This document shows, one piece after another, positions 2,810 through 63,651 of a DNA stretch of 64,000 nucleotides (position 1 is the first letter of the stretch; each line of letters opens with the position of its first letter). Made by a program: the position numbers and the translations under genes. Origin of the DNA: Chthoniobacterales bacterium (GTDB lineage Bacteria; Verrucomicrobiota; Verrucomicrobiia; Chthoniobacterales; UBA10450); assembly GCA_035274845.1 (NCBI GenBank), contig DATENU010000010.1:124001-188000 (forward strand), in the 5' to 3' direction. The notes beneath the pieces were generated by a model, which was given only the letters and a program-made list of their open reading frames with translations, had not been told where the DNA came from and made no database searches.

Positions 2810-3445
2810 TCAATCCTGCGCAGCCGGTTCAGCCGGTGGTTGCTCGGCTGGGGCAGGCTCGGTTTCTTTTCGCGGGGCCGTCGGCAGGTAACGGGTCCGC
2901 AATTCTTCGGCATTCGGCAACTCGTCGAGATCGCGGAGGCCAAAATGTTCGAGGAAAAACTGGGTGGTTTCGTAGAGAAGCGGGCGTCCCGGAACTTCCG
3001 CGCGGCCGGCAATCTTCACGAGGCCGCGCTCCATCAGGCTCTGGAGGACGCCATCGACGGCCACTCCCCGAACCGCTTCGATGTCGGCGCGGGTGATTGG
3101 TTGCCGGTAGGCGACAATGGCCAGCGTCTCCAGCGAGGGCGGAGTCAGACGCGCCGGTTTGACGGCCGGAAACAATTGCCGAACCCACGACGCATACGCC
3201 GGATCGCTCACGAGCTGCCAGCCCTCTGCTCTTTCCGCCAATTGGAAGGCGCGGCCCTGCTCGATGTAATTGATCTTCAATTCTTCGAGAGCGACGGCTA
3301 CCTGACTTTCGGTGGCTTTCGCGAATTCGTTAGGCAGGAGGTCTTCATCGCTGCCCGCGCCTTTGATGGCGGCGACCAGCTCACGTGTTGTCAGCGGTTT
3401 TTGGGCGGCGAAAAGGAGCGCTTCGATTACCTGGGTGAGACTCAT
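2810..3445 (-). CDS. scpB: Segregation and condensation protein B (211 aa)
   Basis: ScpB is the winged-helix kleisin partner that, with ScpA and SMC, forms the chromosome-condensing complex. Evidence: N-terminal MSLTQVIEALLFAAQKPLTTREL, RAFQLAERAEGWQLVSDP, the very conserved LTPPSLETLAIVAYRQPITR then ADIEAVRGVAVDGVLQ, and GRPLLYETTQFFLEHFGL. Two winged helices span about 1-175, followed by an acidic, Pro-rich tail (EPAPAEQPPAEPAAQD). ATG at 3445 is taken because it opens the family N-terminus; the frame continues upstream into glmM as a shadow. No scpA is in the window. It follows glmM by 23 bases, across a nonamer repeat. Confidence 0.95.
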   Translation of the reverse strand: MSLTQVIEALLFAAQKPLTTRELVAAIKGAGSDEDLLPNEFAKATESQVAVALEELKINYIEQGRAFQLAERAEGWQLVSDPAYASWVRQLFPAVKPARLTPPSLETLAIVAYRQPITRADIEAVRGVAVDGVLQSLMERGLVKIAGRAEVPGRPLLYETTQFFLEHFGLRDLDELPNAEELRTRYLPTAPRKETEPAPAEQPPAEPAAQD

Positions 3446-3446
3446 A

Positions 3447-3473
3447 TGCCGTATATGACCTATAGGACCTATA
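3447..3473 (-). repeat. Nonamer tandem repeat leading into scpB
   Basis: On the reverse strand three 9-mers (TATAGGTCC, TATAGGTCA, TATACGGCA) run from 3473 to 3447. The next unit begins TATG, so the scpB ATG lies in exact 9-base register. The tract overlaps the glmM stop codon. Confidence 0.75.
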
Positions 3474-4860
3474 TTCCTATCGCTTTCTCGATCGCTTCCG
3501 CGATCCGGTTTGCCTGGCGATCTATTTGCTCCGGCTCGCGGCCCTCGATCAACAGCCGGATCTTCGGTTCCGTGCCCGAGTAGCGCAGGAGCACCCGGCC
3601 TTTTCCCGAAAGCTCCTTCTCCGCGTCGCCCACCAGCTTCATCACCGCGGGCAACTCTTCGAGGGGGCGTTTCTCTTTCACCTTCAGGTTCCGCTGCGCC
3701 TGCGGATATTTCTTGAGGCATTGCTTGAGCTCGCTCAACGGCCGGCCCGTCGCCTTCATGATCCGCAATACCTGGAGCGCGCTGATGATCCCATCGCCCG
3801 TGGTAGTGAAATCGCGAAAGATCATGTGGCCGCTTTGTTCGCCACCGAGATTCAAATTCCGCTCCAGCATCTCCTCGATCACGTAACGATCGCCGACCTT
3901 CGCCCGGATCACTTTCCCGCCCCGCGACGTGAGCGCTTCGTCCAATCCGAAATTGCTCATGACCGTGGCAACGAGCGTCTGCTCCCGGAGCCGCCCTGAT
4001 TCCAACAGATCCACCGCGGCGATCGCCAGGATCTCGTCGCCGTCCACCAGCTCGCCCTTCTCGTCGCAGAGCAGGGCCCGGTCGGCATCGCCATCGTGGG
4101 TAATACCGATTTGAGCGCCGCTTTCCCGAACCGCGCGCTGGATTTCAGCGGGGTAGGTGCTGCCGCAATCGGCGTTGATGTTCGTCCCGCTCGGCTCGTC
4201 GTGCACCACCGTCAGGTCGGCGCCCAGCTCGCGCAAAATGCAGGGGGTCGATTTGTAGGCGGCGCCGTTGGCCACATCCACGGCGATCCGCATTTTTTCG
4301 AGCGACATTCCGCGTGGGAAACTTGCCTTGGCAAACTCGACATAACGGCCGAGCGCGTCATCGATTCGCCGGGCCCGCCCGATTTTTCCGGCAGTCGGCC
4401 GAATGGAATCGATCTCGCCGCTGAAGACCAAATCTTCGATCTGCTGCTCGATCTGGTCGTCGAGCTTGTAGCCGTCGTGGCGGAAGAATTTGATGCCGTT
4501 GTCCTCGTAAGGATTATGCGACGCCGAGAGGACGATGCCGGCATCCGCGCGAAGCGAACGCGTGATGTAAGCGACGCCGGGCGTCGGCAGCGGCCCGATC
4601 AGGAGGACGTCTACGCCGAGCGAAGTGATTCCGGCCACGAGAGCGTTTTCCAGCATGTAACCCGAGAGCCGGGTGTCTTTGCCGAGCACGATCTTGGGCC
4701 GCGCCCCGGAAGGATGCTCGCGCGGATTCAGCTTCGTGAAAATGTGGGCGGCGGCGCGACCGAGCTTCAATGCCGTCTCGGCCGTAACCGGCTCGACATT
4801 AGCCACGCCCCGGACGCCATCCGTCCCGAAAATCTTTTTCGCCTGCGCCACGCTGGTCAT
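3469..4860 (-). CDS. glmM: Phosphoglucosamine mutase (463 aa)
   Basis: Converts glucosamine-6-phosphate to glucosamine-1-phosphate on the way to UDP-GlcNAc for peptidoglycan and LPS. The protein opens KKIFGTDGVRGVAN, the GlmM N-terminal signature. It carries the phosphoserine loop GIVLSASHNPYEDNGIKFF with catalytic Ser114, the Mg-binding loop THDGDADR near residue 255, the sugar-binding GGEQSGHMI and the C-terminal phosphate-binding RYSGTEPKIR. Length matches the family (about 445-465). ATG at 4860 fits the usual short N-terminal extension. It lies between an NtrC-type regulator and scpB on the same strand and is probably co-transcribed with scpB. Confidence 0.96.
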   Translation of the reverse strand: MTSVAQAKKIFGTDGVRGVANVEPVTAETALKLGRAAAHIFTKLNPREHPSGARPKIVLGKDTRLSGYMLENALVAGITSLGVDVLLIGPLPTPGVAYITRSLRADAGIVLSASHNPYEDNGIKFFRHDGYKLDDQIEQQIEDLVFSGEIDSIRPTAGKIGRARRIDDALGRYVEFAKASFPRGMSLEKMRIAVDVANGAAYKSTPCILRELGADLTVVHDEPSGTNINADCGSTYPAEIQRAVRESGAQIGITHDGDADRALLCDEKGELVDGDEILAIAAVDLLESGRLREQTLVATVMSNFGLDEALTSRGGKVIRAKVGDRYVIEEMLERNLNLGGEQSGHMIFRDFTTTGDGIISALQVLRIMKATGRPLSELKQCLKKYPQAQRNLKVKEKRPLEELPAVMKLVGDAEKELSGKGRVLLRYSGTEPKIRLLIEGREPEQIDRQANRIAEAIEKAIGI

Positions 4861-4930
4861 TGTAGCGGCGGTCTCTGACCGTCGACAACGTTTATCACAA
4901 GCTTGCCTTCGGCGTCATAAACCGCCGTTT

Positions 4931-6334
4931 TTAAGTGGGCGGTTCGGAAAGCGCCCCTCCTTGTTTCAGGTCGTTAATCTTGCGATGCAAGGTCCGCCGG
5001 CTGATGCCAAGTTTCTGTGCGGCCTTGGTGATGTTGCCATTCGTGGTGGCCAGCGCCTGCATGATGAGACGTTTCTCAGTTTCGTGCAGGTCGAGCGCGC
5101 TCGATTTTTCACCGAACGCTTTGGCCGGCGTAACGCCCCCCGGCAAAGCGGCGCCGGTTGCCGCGCGGACGTTGGACGGAAGATCGCGCACAGTCAGCTT
5201 CGAACCGCGCGCCATCACCACTCCGTGTTCGATCGCGGTCCGGAGCTCCCGGACGTTTCCCGGCCAGCCATAAGTCAGGAGCGCGTTCATGGCATCGGCG
5301 GTAAGTTCGAGGAGCGGTTTCTCGTTCACCTTGCAGAAATGCCGCAAAAAGCTCCGGACCAGCAGCGGAATATCCTCCTTCCGCTCGCGCAACGGCGGCA
5401 TCGTGAGATGGACGACGTTCAGGCGGAAATAGAGATCGTCCCGGAATTTTCCTTCGGCCACAAGCTTCTCGAGGTTCTTGTTTGTCGCCGCGATCAGCCG
5501 GACATCCGCGCGCAAAGTCTGGTTTCCCCCGACCCGTTCGAAGGCGCGTTCTTCGCTGATCACTCGCAGCAATTTCACCTGGGTGCTCGCATCGATCTCC
5601 CCGATCTCGTCGAGGAAAATGGTGCCGCCGTTCGCCTGTTCGAAGCGCCCGATCCGGCGTTCATGCGCGCCGGTAAACGCGCCCCGTTCGTGTCCGAACA
5701 GCTCGCTCTCGAGCAATTGCGGCGAGAGAGCGGCGCAATGCACCGTGACAAACTTCGCCTTGTTTCGCCGGCTCAGGTTATGGATCGCATGCGCCGCCAA
5801 CTCCTTTCCGGTCCCGCTTTCGCCTTCAATCAAAACGTTCGCCGACGAGGGCGCGACTTGCCGGATGGTATCGAGCACTTCATGCAGCACCGGCGATTCG
5901 CCCACGATGTTCTCCAGCCCGTAACGTTCGTCCACCTGCTGCCGCAGCGTCCGGTTCTCCTGCTCCATCCGCCGGCTGGCCAGAGCCCGGGAGATCAGCA
6001 TCTCAACCTTGTCGAGGTTGAGCGGCTTGGTCACGAAATCATAGGCGCCGCGCTTCATCGCCTCGACCGCCGTATCGACCGAGCCGTAGGCCGTCATCAT
6101 GATGCAGATCGGCGGATGCGGCAGCTTCAGGGCCCGCTCGATCAGTGCCATACCGTCATCTCCGCCGAGACGAAGATCGGTGATCATCAGATCAATCGGT
6201 TCGCGCTCGAGCACATCCATCGCCCCGCGAATGTCCTCCGCCACGTAAGTGTCGTATTCGTCCTCGAGCAAACGCCGCAACCCGTCGCGCGTATGCTTCT
6301 CGTCGTCGACGATCAGGATGGTAGGCTGCATCAT
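4931..6334 (-). CDS. Sigma-54-dependent response regulator, NtrC family (467 aa)
   Basis: Three domains are visible. The receiver (about 5-118) has DDE at 10-12, phospho-acceptor Asp53 in LMITDLR and Lys103 in VTKP. The AAA+ domain (about 143-375) has Walker A GESGTGKE at 171-178, the sigma-54 contact loop GAFTGA at 218-223 and Walker B GGTIFLDEIGEI at 236-247. A Fis-type helix-turn-helix lies at about 420-455 (NITKAAQKLGISRRTLHRKI). It should remodel RNA polymerase holding sigma-54 at -12/-24 promoters once phosphorylated. No kinase is adjacent; the NtrB-like kinase at 19259-20491 is one candidate partner. The ATG at 6334 overlaps the stop of the frameshifted hicA reading frame (ATGA), which suggests translational coupling. 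Confidence 0.95.
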   Translation of the reverse strand: MMQPTILIVDDEKHTRDGLRRLLEDEYDTYVAEDIRGAMDVLEREPIDLMITDLRLGGDDGMALIERALKLPHPPICIMMTAYGSVDTAVEAMKRGAYDFVTKPLNLDKVEMLISRALASRRMEQENRTLRQQVDERYGLENIVGESPVLHEVLDTIRQVAPSSANVLIEGESGTGKELAAHAIHNLSRRNKAKFVTVHCAALSPQLLESELFGHERGAFTGAHERRIGRFEQANGGTIFLDEIGEIDASTQVKLLRVISEERAFERVGGNQTLRADVRLIAATNKNLEKLVAEGKFRDDLYFRLNVVHLTMPPLRERKEDIPLLVRSFLRHFCKVNEKPLLELTADAMNALLTYGWPGNVRELRTAIEHGVVMARGSKLTVRDLPSNVRAATGAALPGGVTPAKAFGEKSSALDLHETEKRLIMQALATTNGNITKAAQKLGISRRTLHRKINDLKQGGALSEPPT

Positions 6335-35369: not shown

Positions 35370-35475
35370 AAAGAACTTACGTTTAGGGCGTGGCATAGGG
35401 CATGCAAAGGGGGTTCGGTTGAAGTCCGAATTCCGATGTGAATCGCCGATTTCTCAACTCAACCACACTAGCCCT

Positions 35476-36471
35476 ATGATCATTCGCATCCTGTTCCTGC
35501 TCGTTCTCGGCGCCACCGCCGTCTTCGCCTCGTCGGAAGAAAATGTCAGCCAATCGCTCGATGGCGCGCCCGGGGGCCGACTTATTGTCGATGTCGATTT
35601 CGGAACCATCGATGTTGCCGCCGGCGCGGACGACAAAATAACCGTGGCCGCCCATCGGAAGATCGATTCCGACAACGAAGCGCAGGAAAAGGAATATCTC
35701 GCCTCCGCTCCGGTGACGGTGAGCAAAGAAGGCAACACCATCACGGTGCGGGCCCGCCGGCAGGGTAAGGACAAGAACCTAAACTGGTCGGGGCGCTGCA
35801 GTATGGACGCGCGTTACACCGTTCGGGTGCCGAAAAGTTTTAACTCAGAACTGCGCACCGGCGGCGGAACGATCATGGTGGCCGAAATCGCCGGCACCAT
35901 GAGCGCCGACACGAGCGGCGGGAAACTGAAGTTCACCCACCTGAAAGGCCCGACCGGCGCGACGACGAGCGGCGGCAGCATCGAGCTGAACGGATGCGAT
36001 GGCCCTCTTAAAGTGGACACCAGCGGCGGCCGGATCGAAGCGGTCGAGGGGAGCGGTTCCCTCGAGGCGCGGACCTCCGGCGGATCCATCGTGGTCCGGA
36101 ATTTCGCCGGCGACGCGAAGGTGGAAACGAGCGGCGGCCGGCTCGCCTTCGAAAACATCAACGGCAAAATCTTTGGGCGCACCTCCGGCGGATCGATTAG
36201 CGCAAAATTGAAGTCGCCTGTGCCCGGTGACGTGAACCTGGAAACCTCGGCGGGCAGCATCGACGTCATGGTTCCTCTCGATGCCGGTCTCGATGTGGAA
36301 GCGGAAACAAGCTCGGGGCGCGTGACCAGCGACCTGCCCTTTACCGGCACCCGGACGGATCGCGATTCCATGAAAGGAAAAATAAACGGTGGAGGGAAAT
36401 CGCTGGTGCTCCGTTCGGGCGCGGGCAGCATCTCGATAAAACCTTCTTCATCCGAAGTCGCGGCGAAATAG
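35476..36471 (+). CDS. DUF4097 beta-repeat protein, first of the permease cluster (331 aa)
   Basis: Signal peptide [19 protein letters not shown]. The mature part starts [28 protein letters not shown] and runs into periodic strands with TSGG turns every 20-24 residues ([64 protein letters not shown]). This is the right-handed beta-helix typical of DUF4097 'adhesin' domains. The predicted location is periplasm or cell surface. ATG at 35476 is preferred to an upstream TTG. It is 11 bases before the first ADOP permease, with a GGAGG site in that spacer, so the two are probably co-translated in one operon. Confidence 0.9.
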
Positions 36472-38916: not shown

Positions 38917-38992
38917 GTGACGAGTGACATGTGACCAGTGATGTGATGAACGGCGATCGAAAATCGAAATTCGAAAATCGGAAATTTTCATG
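38917..38992 (+). repeat. Two phased heptamer tracts upstream of permease 2
   Basis: GTGACGA, GTGACAT, GTGACCA, GTGATGT, GATGAAC fill 38917-38951. Then CGAAAAT, CGAAATT, CGAAAAT, CGGAAAT and TTTCATG fill 38958-38992. The last unit contains the permease-2 ATG, so the start codon is in 7-base register. No Shine-Dalgarno is seen. Confidence 0.9.
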
Positions 38993-41395
38993 AATCTCCG
39001 CTACGCCGTTCGTCAGCTTCGGAAATCGCCGGGATTTACCCTGGTCGCGGTGCTCACCCTCGCGCTCGGCATCGGCGCCAACACCGCCATCTTCACGGTC
39101 GTCAACGCGGTCCTGCTTTCGCCCCTGCCGTATCCGGACGCCGACCGGCTGGTGACGGTCACTTCGCGCAATCCCCAGGAAAATCTGAAAGGCATCGGGT
39201 TCGCTCCTGCCGGCTTCCGCGACGTCGAAAAGCAGGCGACCTCGTTCGAAGCCCTCGGCGGGTCCCGTTACAACTACGATAACCTGACCGGGATCGAAAA
39301 ACCGACGTCCCTCAGCAGCGGACTGGTCACGCAGGATTACTTCAAGGCACTTGGCGAAAAGGCGCTGATTGGCCGGACCTTCACGAGCGAAGACGCAGCC
39401 GGCGGCGCAAAATCGACGGTCGTCCTGAGCTACGACCTCTGGCAGAAACAATTCGGCGGCCGGCGCGAAGTCGTCGGTCAGTCGGTTACCCTCAACGATG
39501 TGCCGACCGAGGTAATCGGCGTCATGCCGCGTACCTTCAAGGACCCGTTCGGGGTCGCCTCGCTCTGGCGGATTTTTCCCAATGAAGGCGGGGAGAACGC
39601 GGTCGCGAACGCGCGTTTCTGGTGGGTGATGGGAAAATTGAAGCCGGGAATTTCCAACACGACCGCCCAGGCAGAGATGTCGACGATCGCCGCGCGCCTG
39701 GCCCAGAACGATCCGAAATTCTACAAAGGCTGGGATTTCGCGATCAGCCCGCTGCGCGATGACGTCATCGGCAGTTATCGGGAAGGTTTGCTGCTGGTGG
39801 TGGGTGCGTCCTTGCTCGTTCTTCTCATTACCTGCGCGAATGTCGCCGGGCTTCAGTTCGTCCGCGCGTCCACGCGGCAGCGGGAAGTCGCCATTCGCCT
39901 CGCGCTCGGGGCAAGCCGGTCCGCGATCGCGCGGGGTCACCTGCTTGAGTCGCTTCTGCTCGTGACGATGGGGGGAATCGGCGGCGTCCTCGTCGGGAGT
40001 TGGGGATTGGATCTGCTGCTGGCCTCGCTCTCCCGCGATTGGATTCCCCGCGGCGACGAGATCGCCCTGAACACGACCGTGCTCGCGGTTACCGGTTTGA
40101 CGGCGCTGATCACCGGCATCGCTTTCGGTCTGTTTCCGGCGCTCTCCGCAACGCGTGTCGAAGCGATCGATTCTTTGCGCGAAGGCAGCAAAGGATCCTC
40201 CGGTTTGCAGTCGGTTCGGCTCCGCGGCGCGCTTGTCGTCGGACAGATCGCGCTGACTCTGGTCCTGCTCGTTTGCGCGGGGCTCGTCTGGAAAAGTTTC
40301 GGCGCCATTGTTCGGGTCAATCCCGGCATCCAGATCGAGAACACGCTCAGCATGGTGCTGACGCTTTCGCCGACTCGTTACGATACCGGCCCGAAGCGGA
40401 CCGATTACTATCACCAGGTCCTCGAACGGATCGGCGCGGTGCCGGGAGTAGAATCGGTCGGATTGACCCAGACGATGCCGTTCACGTGGGGAATCCCGGC
40501 GACTTTCTCGATCTCCGGGGTGCCGGACGACAGCGCGAAACTGCCGCCCGCGTTCTACGACTCTGTGAGCACGTCCTATTTCGCGACGATGCACATTCCA
40601 CTGATCGCGGGACGCTTGTTCACCGAACAGGACAACGACAACGCGCCGAAAGTTATCGTTCTGAGTCACTCGACGGCCCGGAAATTTTTCCCGAACGAGG
40701 ATCCCATCGGAAAACGGTTGATCCTGCCGCCGAGCCGGCAGCAACCGAATCCGACCGCGCTCGAAGTGATCGGCGTGGTCGGCGACGTCCCGCGGAATGG
40801 TTTGAACGCGGTCACGCCTTATCAAGCTTATGCGACCCTGAACCAGCGGGGCATTCCGTTCGCCACCCTGCTGGTTCGGTCGCCGCTTCCAGTTGAGACG
40901 CTCTCCCAAACGATCCAGCGCACGATTTGGGAATTCAATCCCGAGCAAACGATCTCGAACGTGGCGCCAGTGAAGTCGCTCGTGAAATCGAGCCTCACTC
41001 AGCCGCAACTTTATCTCACGCTCTTCAGCCTCTTCGCGGTCCTGGCGTTGCTGCTCGCGGCTATTGGCCTTTACGGCCTCATCGCCTACAGCGTCGCGCA
41101 ACGCACCCGCGAGTTCGGCATTCGCTACGCGCTGGGCGCGCAGGTGCGCGACGTTTTGCGGCTCGTGCTCGGGCAGGGCGCGCGTCTGACCGCTCTCGGG
41201 CTCGTGATCGGTTTGCTCGCGGCCGCCGCGGTCGCGCGTTTGATGGAAACGCTCCTCTTTCGAACGAAAGCCTACGATCCGATTGTTTTCGCCGGCGTGG
41301 CTGTCGTTCTCGCCCTTATTGGCCTGCTCGCCGCGCTCCTCCCGGCGCTCCGCGCCACCAAGGCGGACCCGGTGGCGGCCCTCCGGGCCGAATGA
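38990..41395 (+). CDS. ADOP-type duplicated orphan ABC permease 2 (801 aa)
   Basis: Starts [16 protein letters not shown], one residue shorter at the front than permease 1. The periplasmic domain has its own loop content (RNPQENLKGIGFAPAGFRDVEKQ). The first coupling loop reads RQREVAIRLALGASRSAI. The second is RTREFGIRYALGAQVRDVL, followed by SLLFRTKAYD-type linker residues and the LRAE end. No Walker A or B is present. The TGA overlaps the dipeptidase ATG (ATGA), so permease 2 and the dipeptidase are translationally coupled. Confidence 0.92.
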   Translation: MNLRYAVRQLRKSPGFTLVAVLTLALGIGANTAIFTVVNAVLLSPLPYPDADRLVTVTSRNPQENLKGIGFAPAGFRDVEKQATSFEALGGSRYNYDNLTGIEKPTSLSSGLVTQDYFKALGEKALIGRTFTSEDAAGGAKSTVVLSYDLWQKQFGGRREVVGQSVTLNDVPTEVIGVMPRTFKDPFGVASLWRIFPNEGGENAVANARFWWVMGKLKPGISNTTAQAEMSTIAARLAQNDPKFYKGWDFAISPLRDDVIGSYREGLLLVVGASLLVLLITCANVAGLQFVRASTRQREVAIRLALGASRSAIARGHLLESLLLVTMGGIGGVLVGSWGLDLLLASLSRDWIPRGDEIALNTTVLAVTGLTALITGIAFGLFPALSATRVEAIDSLREGSKGSSGLQSVRLRGALVVGQIALTLVLLVCAGLVWKSFGAIVRVNPGIQIENTLSMVLTLSPTRYDTGPKRTDYYHQVLERIGAVPGVESVGLTQTMPFTWGIPATFSISGVPDDSAKLPPAFYDSVSTSYFATMHIPLIAGRLFTEQDNDNAPKVIVLSHSTARKFFPNEDPIGKRLILPPSRQQPNPTALEVIGVVGDVPRNGLNAVTPYQAYATLNQRGIPFATLLVRSPLPVETLSQTIQRTIWEFNPEQTISNVAPVKSLVKSSLTQPQLYLTLFSLFAVLALLLAAIGLYGLIAYSVAQRTREFGIRYALGAQVRDVLRLVLGQGARLTALGLVIGLLAAAAVARLMETLLFRTKAYDPIVFAGVAVVLALIGLLAALLPALRATKADPVAALRAE

Positions 41396-42525
41396 ACGCC
41401 ATGGTGACACGTCGTGAATTTACGAGGTCTTTGGGCGGCGCCGCAGCCATCGCTGCGCTCACGCCCATTTTGACCTGGGCGGCGGACGACGCGAAAATAT
41501 CGGCGGAGGCCGCGAAGATTTATCGCGATTCCTTCATTCTCGACGGGAACGCGCTGGCCTCGATCGGCTGGCTGCTCACCCGGCCGAACCAGGAGGAGAT
41601 CACGAAGGGAATCCGCGACTCCGGGATTACCGCGGTCAAGGCGACGCTCGGCGGCGCCATGGGCGATTTCGCCAGCACCGTGGCCGATATCGCCAAGGCG
41701 GACCAGCTCATGGAGAAGCGGCCCGAGCTCTTTCTCAAAGTGCGCATCGCCGCCGATTTCGATCGGGCGCGTTCCGAGAAAAAACTCGGCGTCATCTATT
41801 CGTTCGAATCCGCCGCCATGCTCGAGGACAAGATCGAGCGGATCGAAACTTTTCGCGGACTCGGCGTGCGAGTGATGCAGCTCAATTACAATCGGCGCAC
41901 GCCGTTTGGAGTCGGTTGCCTCGACGGCGAGACGGATGGGCTGACCGACCTCGGCCGGCAGGCGATCGCGAAGATGAATGAGCTTGGCGTCGCGCTGGAC
42001 CTAAGCCATTCCAACACCCAAACGACGGCCGACGGCATCGCCGCTTCGAGCAAGCCGCCGCTGATCACCCACGCCGGTTGCCGCGCCATTTATCAGCATC
42101 CGCGAAACAAGGAGGACCGGGAGCTCAAGGCGCTCGCGGACAAGGGAGGCGTCGTGGGCATTTACATGCTGCCCTACATCACGGCTTCGCCGAAGCAGCC
42201 CATGCGCGACGATTACCTCCAACACCTGGAGCACGCCCTCAAGGTTTGCGGCGAGGACCATGTCGGGATCGGAAGTGACGTTTCCTTCTTCGAAGTCGGC
42301 GAGAGCGACCTGGCGGAGATGAAGAAGGACACCGAAAAGCGGAAGGCGGATGGGATCGCCGCTCCGGGCGAAGATCGGCCGACCTACATCCCGGACCTCA
42401 ACACGCCGCGGAAAATGGAGCTGATTGCCGACGCGCTCCTGAAACGCGGCCACAAGACCGCGGCCGTAGAAAAAATTCTCGGCGCCAATTTCAAACGAGC
42501 TTTTGGGGACATATGGACCACCTGA
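41392..42525 (+). CDS. Tat-exported M19-type dipeptidase, variant metal site (377 aa)
   Basis: Twin-arginine motif TRREFTRSLGG precedes a hydrophobic segment (AAAIAALTPILTWAA), so export folded through Tat is predicted. The TIM-barrel of renal/membrane dipeptidases (peptidase M19) follows. The family motif D-G-H-N-D is D-G-N-A-L here (residues 51-55), so both ligands of the HxD pair are missing. Glu139 (YSFESAAM), His206 (LDLSHSN) and His227 (LITHAGCRA) are retained, as are LTDLGRQAIAKMNELGV and GIGSDVSF. Activity is therefore in doubt, or relies on a single metal. It sits between permeases 2 and 3; spacing downstream is 41 bases. ATG at 41392 is used; ATG 41401 is possible. Confidence 0.88.
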   Translation: MNAMVTRREFTRSLGGAAAIAALTPILTWAADDAKISAEAAKIYRDSFILDGNALASIGWLLTRPNQEEITKGIRDSGITAVKATLGGAMGDFASTVADIAKADQLMEKRPELFLKVRIAADFDRARSEKKLGVIYSFESAAMLEDKIERIETFRGLGVRVMQLNYNRRTPFGVGCLDGETDGLTDLGRQAIAKMNELGVALDLSHSNTQTTADGIAASSKPPLITHAGCRAIYQHPRNKEDRELKALADKGGVVGIYMLPYITASPKQPMRDDYLQHLEHALKVCGEDHVGIGSDVSFFEVGESDLAEMKKDTEKRKADGIAAPGEDRPTYIPDLNTPRKMELIADALLKRGHKTAAVEKILGANFKRAFGDIWTT

Positions 42526-42534
42526 TCTGCCAAT

Positions 42535-42569
42535 CGAAATTCGAAAATTGAAAATCGAAAATTAATATG
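42535..42569 (+). repeat. CGAAAAT-type heptamer tract before permease 3
   Basis: CGAAATT, CGAAAAT, TGAAAAT, CGAAAAT, TAATATG: five exact 7-base units, the last holding the ATG of permease 3. Confidence 0.9.
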
Positions 42570-44990
42570 CACGACCTTCGCTTCGCCTTCCGCCAACTCC
42601 GGAAATCGCCCGGCTTCACCATCATCGCGGTGCTCACCCTTGCGCTCGGCATCGGTGCGAACTCCGCCATCTTCAGCGTGGTTAACCACGTTCTGCTTCG
42701 GCCGCTGCCGTATCCACAACCGGAGCGGCTCGTTTATCTGAACGAAGTGATCAACGGCACCGACACGTCGATCGCGCTGCCGGATTACGTCGACTGGCGT
42801 AACGACAGCAAGTCATTTGAGCATCTCGCGATGAGCCGGTTGGAGTCGCGCAACATCGGCGGCCTTGCCGGCGGGCAACCGGAGCGAATCTCCGTCGCGT
42901 ACGTGACCGCCAATTTTTTCAGCGTAATCGGTCTGCAGCCGCAGCTCGGCCGGACCTTTACCGAAGATGAAGACAAGCCCGGTGCACCGCCGCTCGCGAT
43001 TATCAGCGATCGGATCTGGGACCGCGTCTTTCATCGCGACCCGAAAATCGTTGGGCAGCCGATGGAATTTCACGGCACCCCGGTCACGGTCATTGGCGTT
43101 ATGCCGCGCGAGATGGATTCGCCGCACGGTGTTGACGCGTGGTTCGCGGTGATGCGCCGCGCGGCGAATCCCGGGTGGCAGAACCGGGCCAATCACCCAA
43201 TGTTCTTCGGCTGGGGCCGGCTCAAGCAGGGCGTGACAGTCGAACAGGCGCGGAGCGAGATAAAAGCAATCTCCGCCCGTCTCGAAAAAGTTTATCCGGC
43301 CACCAACACCGGTGTGGGAGCAAACGTCCGTCCGCTCCTCGACAATCTTCTCGGCAATTACCGAACGAGCCTCGCCCTGCTTTTGGGCGCGGTTGCGGTG
43401 GTTTTGCTCATCGCCTGCGCGAACTTAGCGAATCTCCTGGCCGTGCGTGGGGCCGCACGCGCCCGGGAGTTTGCGGTTCGCGCAGCGATGGGTGCCGGGC
43501 GCGGCCAGATCGTGCGCCAGCTATTGCTCGAGAGCTTTGTCATTTCCACAATCGGCGGCGCGCTCGGATTGATCTTCGCCACCTGGGGACGAGACGCTCT
43601 CGTCGCTTTCGCTCCGGCTGGCGCGCCGCGCTTCGAAGGGATCGGATTCGACTGGCGGGTGTTGGCGTTCACTTTTCTCCTGGCGACATTAACCACGATT
43701 TTGTTCGGACTCTGGCCCGCCTGGCAGGCGGCGCGGACCGACATCAACACCGCGCTCCAAGCCGGCTCGCATGGAAGCTCGGAAACGAAATCTGCGCGCC
43801 GGAGCCGCGACTGGCTCGTGGTCGTCGAGGTGGCGTTGACGTTGTTGCTCCTGACCGCGGCTGGCCTTGTCCTCAAGAGCTTTGCGAAAATGCAGTCGAC
43901 GCGGCTCGGCTTCGATCCGCAGGACATGCTCACGGTTCGAATCGAAATGCCGTTCACAAAATATACGGAGCTGCAGCCGATCTTAAATTTCACGAACAGT
44001 TTGCTCGGCGAAGTCCGCAAGCTGCCGGGAGTGCAAAGGGCGGCCCTCTCTGCAAACCCGCCGATGCTCAGCGGTTGGCAGCTCAGTTTCATGCCGGAAG
44101 GCGCACCGCCGACCGATCCCAGCCAGCAACCGTCGGCCGATTATGAAGTCGTGCAGGGCGATTATTTCGCCACCCTCAAAATAAACCTGATTCGCGGACG
44201 AACCTTCGACGAACGCGATCGCGTCGATTCGCCGCCGGTTGTCATTATCGACCAGTTACTGGCCGACACGACATTCAAGGGCCAGGATCCGATCGGGAAG
44301 CGGCTGATGGTTGATACGGAATCGGATGTGGTCGAAGGCGGTCAGCGGCTTTACGAGATCGTCGGCGTTGTGCCACATCTGAAGATGCGCGGCTACGACG
44401 ACGCAATGCCGACCCCGGCGTTTTTCTTTCCGGAAACACAGATTGGCCGCACGAATCTTACTCTGCTCGTCCGGGGCTCCGGCAACGTGAAGCGCCTCGA
44501 GAAACCGATTCGCGATATCGTCGCCCGGCTCGATCCAACTCAGCCAGTCTTCGATGTCCGTTCGATGGAAGAACGCGTGGCCGAAACATGGGCGACGCAA
44601 CGGCTGCTCTCGTTCCTGCTCACGATCTTCGCGGGGCTTGCGTTACTCCTCGCTGCCGTCGGGTTGTATGGGGTGCTGGCTTACAGCGCGACGCGGAGAC
44701 TGCGAGAAATCGCGGTGCGGCTCGCGCTTGGAGCGCGCCCCGCGCACATCCGTGGGTTAGTCATGGGCCACGGGCTGCGGCTGTTTGGCATCGGCATCGT
44801 CGTTGGCGCCCTCGCTGTCCTTGCGTCCGCCAGCGTCATTCGCAGCTTTCTCTTCGGCGTTTCGCCGCTGGATGCGCAGACCTACCTGATGGTCGGCCTG
44901 ATCCTTTCCGTCGTCACCATCCTGGCCGCGTGGCTCCCCGCCCGCCGCGCCTGCCGGGTCAACCCCATTGTCGCTCTTCGAGCGGAATAA
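42567..44990 (+). CDS. ADOP-type duplicated orphan ABC permease 3 (807 aa)
   Basis: Starts [17 protein letters not shown]. By eye it is the closest paralogue of permease 1: shared [14 protein letters not shown], the loop before the first FtsX helices ([27 protein letters not shown]) and the late [20 protein letters not shown]. The second coupling loop is [18 protein letters not shown]. It ends [16 protein letters not shown]. Only two bases separate it from permease 4, whose initiation must depend on reinitiation or coupling. Confidence 0.92.
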
Positions 44991-62539: not shown

Positions 62540-62574
62540 GTGACAAGTGACCTGTGAAGAGTGACAAGATCATG
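62540..62574 (+). repeat. GTGACNN heptamer tract before the second DUF4097 gene
   Basis: GTGACAA, GTGACCT, GTGAAGA, GTGACAA, GATCATG. The ATG at 62572 lies in register in the last unit. Confidence 0.9.
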
Positions 62575-63651
62575 AAAACGAAATCGCACCCAACCATTCC
62601 CTTAATCCCTCGTTCCCAAACTTTGTTTGGGAACACACTTGTCACGGCAACTTTGTTGCCCCCGCAGCGAAACAGAGTTTCCAAGACAATGGCAGTCCCA
62701 AACACAGTTTGGGAACGAGGAGTCCTGGCACTTTTGCTCATACTCCTCTCGCTGGCCCTCCCCACTGCTCAGGCCGCCCCCGGGACGCGCGACGAGATCG
62801 AACAAACATTCCACGTTAAACCCGGCGGCGCTCTGAAAATCGACGCCGACCTGGGCAACGTCGAAATAACCACGTCAGAATCGGATACGGTCCGGATCGA
62901 GTTCGTCCGCGAATTCAAAGTCCCAACCATACAGGAAGCGAACGAGCTGCGGCAGAAGGTGCAGGTGGAGATGGGACAGCACGAGACCACCGATAACCCG
63001 CAAAATTCGGTTAACCTGAACGTTCGCTATACCGGCAGTCGGCACGGCCGCGAACGCGACAAAGTCCGGCTTGATTTTCGGATCGCGATGCCGCGGAAGT
63101 TCAATCTCGAGATGCGCACGGTCGGGAGCGCGAAGATCGGTGACATCGAGGGTTGGGTGAAAGCGCGAGTGAACGGCGGTAGTTTGCAGCTGGGCAAAGT
63201 GGGGGAACGCCTTTCCGCGCGGGCGAATGGCGGGAGCGTCAGCACGGGAGATGTGGGCGAGCTGGATGTCGAAAGTCGCGGCGGTTCGGTTTCGGCCGGA
63301 CGCGTAAGTGGCAAAGTCCGGGCCGTCGCGGAAGGCGGCAGCGTTTCGATTACCGAGGCACTCGATGCCGTTGACGCCCGGGCGGCAGGCGGGTCTGTCG
63401 CGGTTTACATTTCGAAACAACCGGGATCCGACTCGCGCTTGATCGCGGAGGCAGGCAACGTCGATTTGCGGTTGCCGGCCGCGATCGCGATCTCACTCAA
63501 TGCCGAGTGCAGCGCTGGACGCATCAACAGCGATTTTGCCGTCTCGGGAATTGTTCATACGAGCGAGACCCGGCTCACGGGCGACATCAACGGTGGTGGC
63601 CCGGCCGTCCTCGTTCGGGCTTCGGCTGGCAATATCAACCTGCGAAAGTAA
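62572..63651 (+). CDS. DUF4097 beta-repeat protein, second copy, with repeat-derived N-terminus (359 aa from ATG 62572)
   Basis: A hydrophobic signal segment VLALLLILLSLALPTAQA lies about 50 residues after ATG 62572, which is too deep for a normal signal peptide. The sequence between is encoded by the hairpin element 62608-62720. A start at ATG 62689 (MAVPNTVWERG) gives a regular signal peptide and is more plausible in vivo. The mature part has the DUF4097 start (FHVKPGGALKIDADLGNVEITTSESDTVRIEF) and beta-helix periods with NGGS/RGGS/EGGS turns (VNGGSLQL, ANGGSVST, RGGSVSAG, EGGSVSIT, AGGSVAVY). It is the counterpart of the gene at 35476, placed after ten permeases. Confidence 0.88.
   Translation: MKTKSHPTIPLIPRSQTLFGNTLVTATLLPPQRNRVSKTMAVPNTVWERGVLALLLILLSLALPTAQAAPGTRDEIEQTFHVKPGGALKIDADLGNVEITTSESDTVRIEFVREFKVPTIQEANELRQKVQVEMGQHETTDNPQNSVNLNVRYTGSRHGRERDKVRLDFRIAMPRKFNLEMRTVGSAKIGDIEGWVKARVNGGSLQLGKVGERLSARANGGSVSTGDVGELDVESRGGSVSAGRVSGKVRAVAEGGSVSITEALDAVDARAAGGSVAVYISKQPGSDSRLIAEAGNVDLRLPAAIAISLNAECSAGRINSDFAVSGIVHTSETRLTGDINGGGPAVLVRASAGNINLRK
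62608..62720. mobile_element. Hairpin-array repeat element (113 bp), MITE-like
   Basis: Bounded by a 25-base inverted repeat with one mismatch (CCTCGTTCCCAAAC... at both ends). Inside are four consecutive hairpins with 3-base loops: 62613-62633 (9-bp stem, TTT), 62646-62660 (GGCAAC/GTTGCC, TTT), 62669-62681 (GAAAC/GTTTC, AGA) and about 62696-62714 (TCCCAAAC/GTTTGGGA, ACA). The reading frame of the DUF4097 gene passes through it unbroken. Elements of this look, giving 'SQTLFGN' and 'NTVWERG' peptides, recur in other bacterial genomes; that is recollection, not a search. Confidence 0.8.

Follow-up and report, generated by a model that had tools for sequence, protein, structure and literature searches.

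In a 64,000-nucleotide stretch of contig DATENU010000010.1 from a Chthoniobacterales bacterium (hereafter the window), we analyzed a gene at 41392–42525 on the forward strand, whose 377-residue product, P0001, has the fold of the M19 dipeptidases and lacks the HxD motif of their two-metal site. Half of this site is gone in P0001, whereas the other half, formed by Glu139, His206 and His227, is kept together with the base Asp296 and with Arg238. We read P0001 as a periplasmic hydrolase of the amidohydrolase fold that would be derived from M19 dipeptidases, exported by the twin-arginine translocation (Tat) pathway, dependent on one metal instead of two, and placed among ADOP permeases as a lone passenger that does not act with them. 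Judged from sequence, fold model and analogy, we give this composite reading an even chance of being correct.

Residues and fold of the metal site

The Pfam profile PF01244 (Peptidase_M19) matched P0001 with 228.7 bits at a cut-off of 26, marking it as an M19 homologue, and a scan with NCBIfam profiles assigned it to no family. Upon re-reading, the open reading frame (ORF), coordinates and residues that an earlier sequence-only description of this DNA (the initial annotation) had given for 41392–42525 were all as stated. We then compared its residues with those of human renal dipeptidase (DPEP1), whose numbering we derived by aligning a canonical relative to solved structures. In DPEP1, the first metal is bound by His20, Asp22 and Glu125 and the second by Glu125, His198 and His219, while Asp288 serves as base, Arg230 grips the substrate carboxylate and His152 lies near the scissile bond. 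On the first barrel strand of P0001 (model strand 50–56), D51-G52-N53-A54-L55 (41542–41556) replaces D-G-H-x-D, such that His20 and Asp22 become Asn53 and Leu55; Tyr166 (41887–41889) stands at the place of His152, and these three dipeptidase residues are without counterpart. Glu139 (41806–41808), His206 (42007–42009), His227 (42070–42072), Arg238 (42103–42105) and Asp296 (42277–42279) correspond to Glu125, His198, His219, Arg230 and Asp288, respectively. The second strand (model strand 81–85) carries Lys83 (41638–41640), which will be of importance below.

The alignment to renal dipeptidase bore out the initial reading of D-G-H-N-D as D-G-N-A-L with Glu139, His206 and His227 retained, a reading that would have failed if another HxD pair occupied the site. 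A pattern search of the whole protein yielded zero HxD and zero HxH matches, histidines being present only at positions 206, 227, 236, 278, 281, 290 and 354, which excludes a second HxD pair in the site. Likewise, chance or a sequencing error can be excluded as the origin of the missing motif, because all readable members of a clade of relatives carry the same substitution.

An AlphaFold2 model of P0001, built from a 43-row alignment, reached a predicted local distance difference test score (pLDDT) of 90.5 and a predicted template modelling score (pTM) of 0.87, with residues 1–33 being of low confidence; the model contains no metal. Compared with solved structures, it matched 2i5g_A best (Z 42.8, 322 residues, 2.3 Å) and superimposed on human renal dipeptidase 1itq_A with a Z of 40.1, identifying a barrel of the renal dipeptidase type. 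DPEP1, GliJ, Sco3058 and others rank after 2i5g_A at Z of about 40, NagA and other amidohydrolases reach Z ≤16, and no better match from any fold outside the amidohydrolase kin appeared in the structure-search lists.

Closest to P0001 both by sequence (phmmer 2.1e-50) and by fold is thus 2i5g, an 'amidohydrolase' from Pseudomonas aeruginosa released in 2006, whose gene we take to be PA5396. Like P0001, 2i5g is devoid of HxD and retains the Tyr, both His, the Arg and the Asp; unlike P0001, it has Leu where the profile alignment puts Asn53, Asn in place of Lys83 and Gln in place of Glu139, and hence belongs to another HxD-less type. Among the six solved first strands that we read (2i5g, 3id7, 9h0b, 1itq, 6vgo and 5lx0, from 16 matched structures), HxD was absent only in 2i5g. 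In the open-access literature, we found no function paper for 2i5g, nothing useful on PvdM and PA5396, and no study of the site variant seen in P0001. The binuclear M19 enzymes DPEP1 (1itq) and Sco3058 (3id7) share the fold of P0001 and its counterparts of Glu125, His198, His219, Arg230 and Asp288, but not those of His20, Asp22 and His152. The GliJ entries D38N (5lx7) and D38H (5lx4) represent laboratory mutants of the HxD aspartate (position taken from the alignment), which, as these entries indicate, fold and crystallize; unlike P0001, they are point mutants of a two-metal enzyme.

The HxD-less clade and its sister group

To place P0001 among its relatives, we used the best 80 of 133 confirmed relatives from a scan of 84,980 named genomes. 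Relatives were picked via two short patterns (at about positions 154–162 and 284–291), and the invariance of these segments is therefore partly chosen; positions 53, 83, 139 and 166 played no part in the choice. After the addition of loci from kin of the genome and from plasmid records, the alignment comprised 130 rows, from which we removed the duplicates L005, L034, L006, L035, L036 and L037, two frames of the broken locus L096 and one L100 fragment, and to which we added P0001, giving 122 distinct rows for classification. Forty-eight of them, P0001 included, form an Asn/Lys/Glu clade, in which Glu139, Lys83 and Tyr166 are each present in 48 of 48 rows and Asn53 in all 47 that are readable at this position. 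A second HxD-less group of 46 rows has Gln139 throughout (46/46) and no Lys83, with Asn83 in 28 rows and either Tyr166 (40) or His166 (6). The HxD type accounts for 26 of the 122 rows, all having the Glu and His152, and the remaining rows are L023, an HxD-type protein without its N-terminus, and the odd L013. His206, His227, Arg238 and Asp296 are kept in all three sets (48/48, 46/46 and 26/26 in the Asn/Lys/Glu, Gln and HxD rows, respectively). The Asn/Lys/Glu clade received a Shimodaira–Hasegawa-like approximate likelihood ratio test (SH-aLRT) support of 99 both in the tree of all 122 rows and in that of an 80-row subset, from which long-branch rows and near-copies had been dropped. Its members belong to at least three phyla, mostly to Pseudomonadota, and also to Acidobacteriota and Verrucomicrobiota.

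The motif loss, which the initial annotation had treated as peculiar to this gene, is accordingly common to a large clade, and the same genome harbors a second HxD-less paralogue elsewhere (L036, 8383–9522 on G000:C15). This protein has a Tat-type N-terminus and is of the Gln type (D-G-Q, Gln139), with a His at the place of His152. Two further relatives deserve mention as observations in their own right. In Candidatus Udaeobacter, a relative (L096, 5755–6928) is split in two frames and has Asp at the place of Asn53 and Thr at that of Glu139, representing a decaying copy or an assembly error. A Gln-type protein from a record titled Bacillus subtilis SK7B5 (L125) groups with rows from Tahibacter and a moss-associated member of the Verrucomicrobia, and the title may be wrong. 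Viral contigs contained no relative of P0001, and phages yielded 11 weak, partial matches only.

Because the first sample depended on patterns, we drew an independent one without pattern choice, searching, at E ≤ 1e-30, two order-level genome sets, one centred on a Stenotrophomonas and the other on a Sphingomonas genome. Matches were present in 54 of 299 and 81 of 296 genomes, respectively, and in 9 of 229 genomes of a class-level set around the Stenotrophomonas genome. Classifying loci from up to 30 places per order set gave 70 matching frames, 61 of them new. Among the matches listed, these 61 comprised 12 frames with Asn, Lys, Glu and Tyr at the four positions, 47 with Gln139, one with Arg83 and Glu139 (L213, N-terminus unreadable) and one odd frame, and none had His53 or HxD. 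The four-residue signature was present in 12 of 12 complete Glu139 rows. With Asn53 in 47 of 47 rows, with Lys83, Glu139, Tyr166, His206, His227, Arg238 and Asp296 in 48 of 48, and with the repetition in the 12 independent rows, the conservation is, at the level of sequence, the pattern of a working and not of a decaying site. The best trees show the Gln rows as a paraphyletic set; on this topology, Glu139 of the Asn/Lys/Glu clade would be a regain. A tree constrained to a single Gln clade was not rejected (approximately unbiased test, p-AU 0.382), and we therefore dropped the firm claim that Glu139 was regained.

The single-metal reading and its alternatives

In the reading we favor, Glu139, His206 and His227 would hold a single metal in the remaining half-site, Asp296 would act as general base and Arg238 would grip the substrate carboxylate. 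Asn53 and Lys83, which are invariant in the Asn/Lys/Glu clade only, would fill the half that has become free, where the ammonium group of Lys83 would perhaps offset Glu139. Given that Tyr166 replaces the dipeptidase His near the scissile bond, an ordinary dipeptide is an unlikely substrate. A precedent is provided by N-acetylglucosamine-6-phosphate deacetylase (NagA) of the E. coli type, which is not known to be exported. It shares with P0001 the superfamily fold (1ymy_A, Z 15.5) and the loss of the first-strand metal motif, and differs from it in its substrate and in sequence (15% identity over 248 residues). At the level of sequence, P0001 resembles a NagA-type site, with a polar Asn53 on the first strand and with Glu139, His206, His227 and Asp296 invariant in the clade. 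QxN replaces HxH in the NagA of E. coli and V. cholerae, which are active single-metal enzymes; a QxN mutant of a two-metal mycobacterial NagA was active with a 7-fold higher Michaelis constant, whereas activity was abolished in an AxA mutant (PMC6016474). By this analogy, we infer the metal count of P0001. A single-metal enzyme, one of the options named in the initial annotation, is thus the best fit to the conserved residues, with the one-metal state resting on the NagA comparison.

Several points weigh against this assignment. The equivalent of His152 has been lost as well, and three His of membrane dipeptidase are reportedly essential. In the sister group, the two His persist while all 46 rows have Gln instead of Glu, so that the ligand set of the M19 fold can apparently erode further, possibly to none. 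The Asn/Lys/Glu signature tracks a single branch of the tree and counts as one evolutionary event, however many rows display it. Finally, 6 rows of the independent sample combine Arg83 with Gln139, which also speaks against a strict charge pairing of positions 83 and 139. Together with the Arg83/Glu139 row (L213), these rows led us to reject strict Lys83/Glu139 pairing. A further reading, for which we see a rather small chance, would have Lys83, with Asn53, stand in for the first metal opposite Glu139 in both position and charge, creating a centre of one metal and one ammonium. Because the lineages around the clade carry Gln at position 139, the Glu may have been regained with the Lys, and the Gln sister group would represent a charge-neutral intermediate.

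The loss of the His20, Asp22 and His152 equivalents, and in the sister group of the Glu too, could also indicate a metal-free pseudoenzyme, that is, a periplasmic ligand-binding protein whose pocket (Arg238 and the His pair) would be kept for a small carboxylate. Inactive-looking family members do exist, as exemplified by human dipeptidase 3 (DPEP3, 6vgo), an M19 protein with a broken site like P0001. However, DPEP3 is the mirror image of P0001: it retains HxD and has Tyr, Leu and Asn at the places of His198, Arg230 and Asp288, having lost exactly the residues that P0001 keeps. Moreover, all 48 clade rows share the His pair, Glu139, the base Asp296 and Arg238. We found no papers on M19 pseudoenzymes in the open-access literature, and consider a pseudoenzyme doubtful, with perhaps one chance in a handful.

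Slightly less probable, in our view, is a metal-dependent enzyme of another chemistry or substrate class, such as a deacylase, lactonase or lyase, serving a catabolic pathway other than peptide breakdown. The surroundings of Gln-type relatives point in this direction. On a plasmid of Paraburkholderia sp. PGU19 (L045, 6671–16951), such a gene lies in an operon with genes for serine hydroxymethyltransferase, an NADH:flavin oxidoreductase, an Fe-S protein, two electron-transfer flavoproteins and an aromatic-ring dioxygenase, which we take to be a dimethylglycine/glycine betaine catabolic set and which appears promising for defining the Gln-type substrate. A second amidohydrolase gene adjoins the Gln-type M19 gene in most of ten loci (L044 and nine others) and is three genes off in one (among the nine loci listed), and an ABC transporter accompanies the Gln-type relative in Sinorhizobium. 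This gene order suggests that the Gln-type relatives are catabolic hydrolases. The Asn/Lys/Glu clade, in contrast, has no common neighbor partner beyond close relatives, and we therefore rejected a read-out of its substrate from gene clusters.

P0001 might also still be a two-metal dipeptidase in which other residues, such as Asn53 and a carbamylated Lys83, bind the second metal. This would account for the invariance of these two residues on the first two barrel strands, but P0001 contains neither HxD nor HxH and the carbamylated Lys ligands known from this fold sit on another strand, making such an arrangement improbable.

The consequences extend beyond P0001. Public records label the HxD-less relatives 'membrane dipeptidase', although these proteins lack one half of the metal site by which that enzyme is defined. 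The label is therefore probably wrong for many of these genes, in our sample in two Pseudomonadota orders and scattered elsewhere. Nature thus offers three states of one site in one fold (HxD/Glu, Asn/Lys/Glu and Leu/Asn/Gln), allowing a direct test of how a two-metal hydrolase sheds a metal. P0001 itself is ordinary as one of many and unusual as a site variant that has not been studied as far as the open-access literature goes.

Export signal and position in the ADOP array

The N-terminus of P0001 carries a twin-arginine-type signal (41401–41490), consisting of MVTRREF, with its RRxF motif, and a subsequent hydrophobic stretch. Of the 48 clade members, 47 could be read at the N-terminus, and 46 of these have RR-x-hydrophobic, in agreement with the Tat export initially described; P0001 would accordingly be a Tat substrate. 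Regarding the proposed translational coupling to the upstream permease 2, the ATG at 41392 does overlap the permease stop codon (TGA, 41393–41395), but the starts of the homologues match Met4 (41401). As their N-termini align with MVTRREF from this residue, translation may begin at the ATG 41401, 5 nucleotides past the stop, which is the more likely of the two starts.

Both neighbors of the M19 gene are ADOP permeases by the NCBIfam profile TIGR03434 (cut-off 622.3), namely permease 2 at 38990–41395 (881.3 bits) and permease 3 at 42567–44990 (937.1 bits), both on the forward strand, and the gene is embedded in a permease array as first described. With a profile built from five window ADOPs, we counted 10 full ADOPs in the window, plus an eleventh that begins there. 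The same-strand array runs from 36483 past 64000 (L142, L143) to about G000:C10:210210, amounting to about 19 ADOPs over some 50 kb.

This neighborhood does not recur. The initial annotation had suggested a binding protein working with the permeases and a check of whether D-G-N homologues adjoin ADOPs. An ADOP-like ORF was found near none of the 47 Asn/Lys/Glu clade relatives (for 33 of which each flank covers 2.5 kb or more) and in the fetched flank of 2 of all 93 HxD-less relatives (74 of them with flanks of this length). In the equivalent array stretch of seven congeneric genomes, an M19 gene was present in none, and each congener has one M19 match, all of the HxD type. Directly after permease 2, four of the seven (L144, L145, L149 and L150) have another ADOP that is missing at this slot in our genome, followed by permease 3 in two of them. 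In L148, permease 1 is followed by the same extra ADOP and permease 3, in L147 by permease 3, and L146 has permease 3 without preceding permeases 1 and 2. The extra ADOP (72–75% identical) corresponds to two tandem copies later in the genome's own array (L142:666–3152 and 3166–5619). Because the ADOP order after permease 2 differs among congeners and the extra ADOP stands elsewhere here, the M19 gene, to judge from these comparisons, occupies a slot in an array undergoing reshuffling.

In the phylum set, a relative at E ≤ 1e-60 was present in 2 of 288 genomes, and in the tree P0001 and a Spartobacteria protein (70–71%) join proteins of the Xanthomonadales type. The gene was likely gained by transfer. 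It would represent a lone passenger, gained or kept by chance in the reshuffled array and possibly co-transcribed with permease 2 without being functionally tied to the permeases. That it is a functional part of the array, as its position between two ADOPs, its overlap or near contact with the permease 2 stop and the 41-nucleotide spacer behind it might suggest, is very improbable given the absence of ADOPs beside all 47 clade relatives, the absence of M19 genes from all seven congeneric stretches and the other ADOP after permease 2 in four of these. We therefore rejected a partnership with the permeases, and the place of the gene among them is, on comparative grounds, a local accident of gene order. 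P0001 hence gives no clue to the function of the ADOP permeases, which removes a false lead for this genome.

Two minor features of the array were noted. The A+T-rich 41-nucleotide spacer 3' of the M19 gene (42526–42566, CCAATCGAAATTCGAAAATTG...) is related to sequences at 18 further sites of the genome, several of which lie between ADOPs, and represents a dispersed intergenic repeat. Two DUF4097 (toastrack) proteins are encoded at 35419–36471, before the array, and at 62554–63651, inside it between ADOP 10 and ADOP 11.

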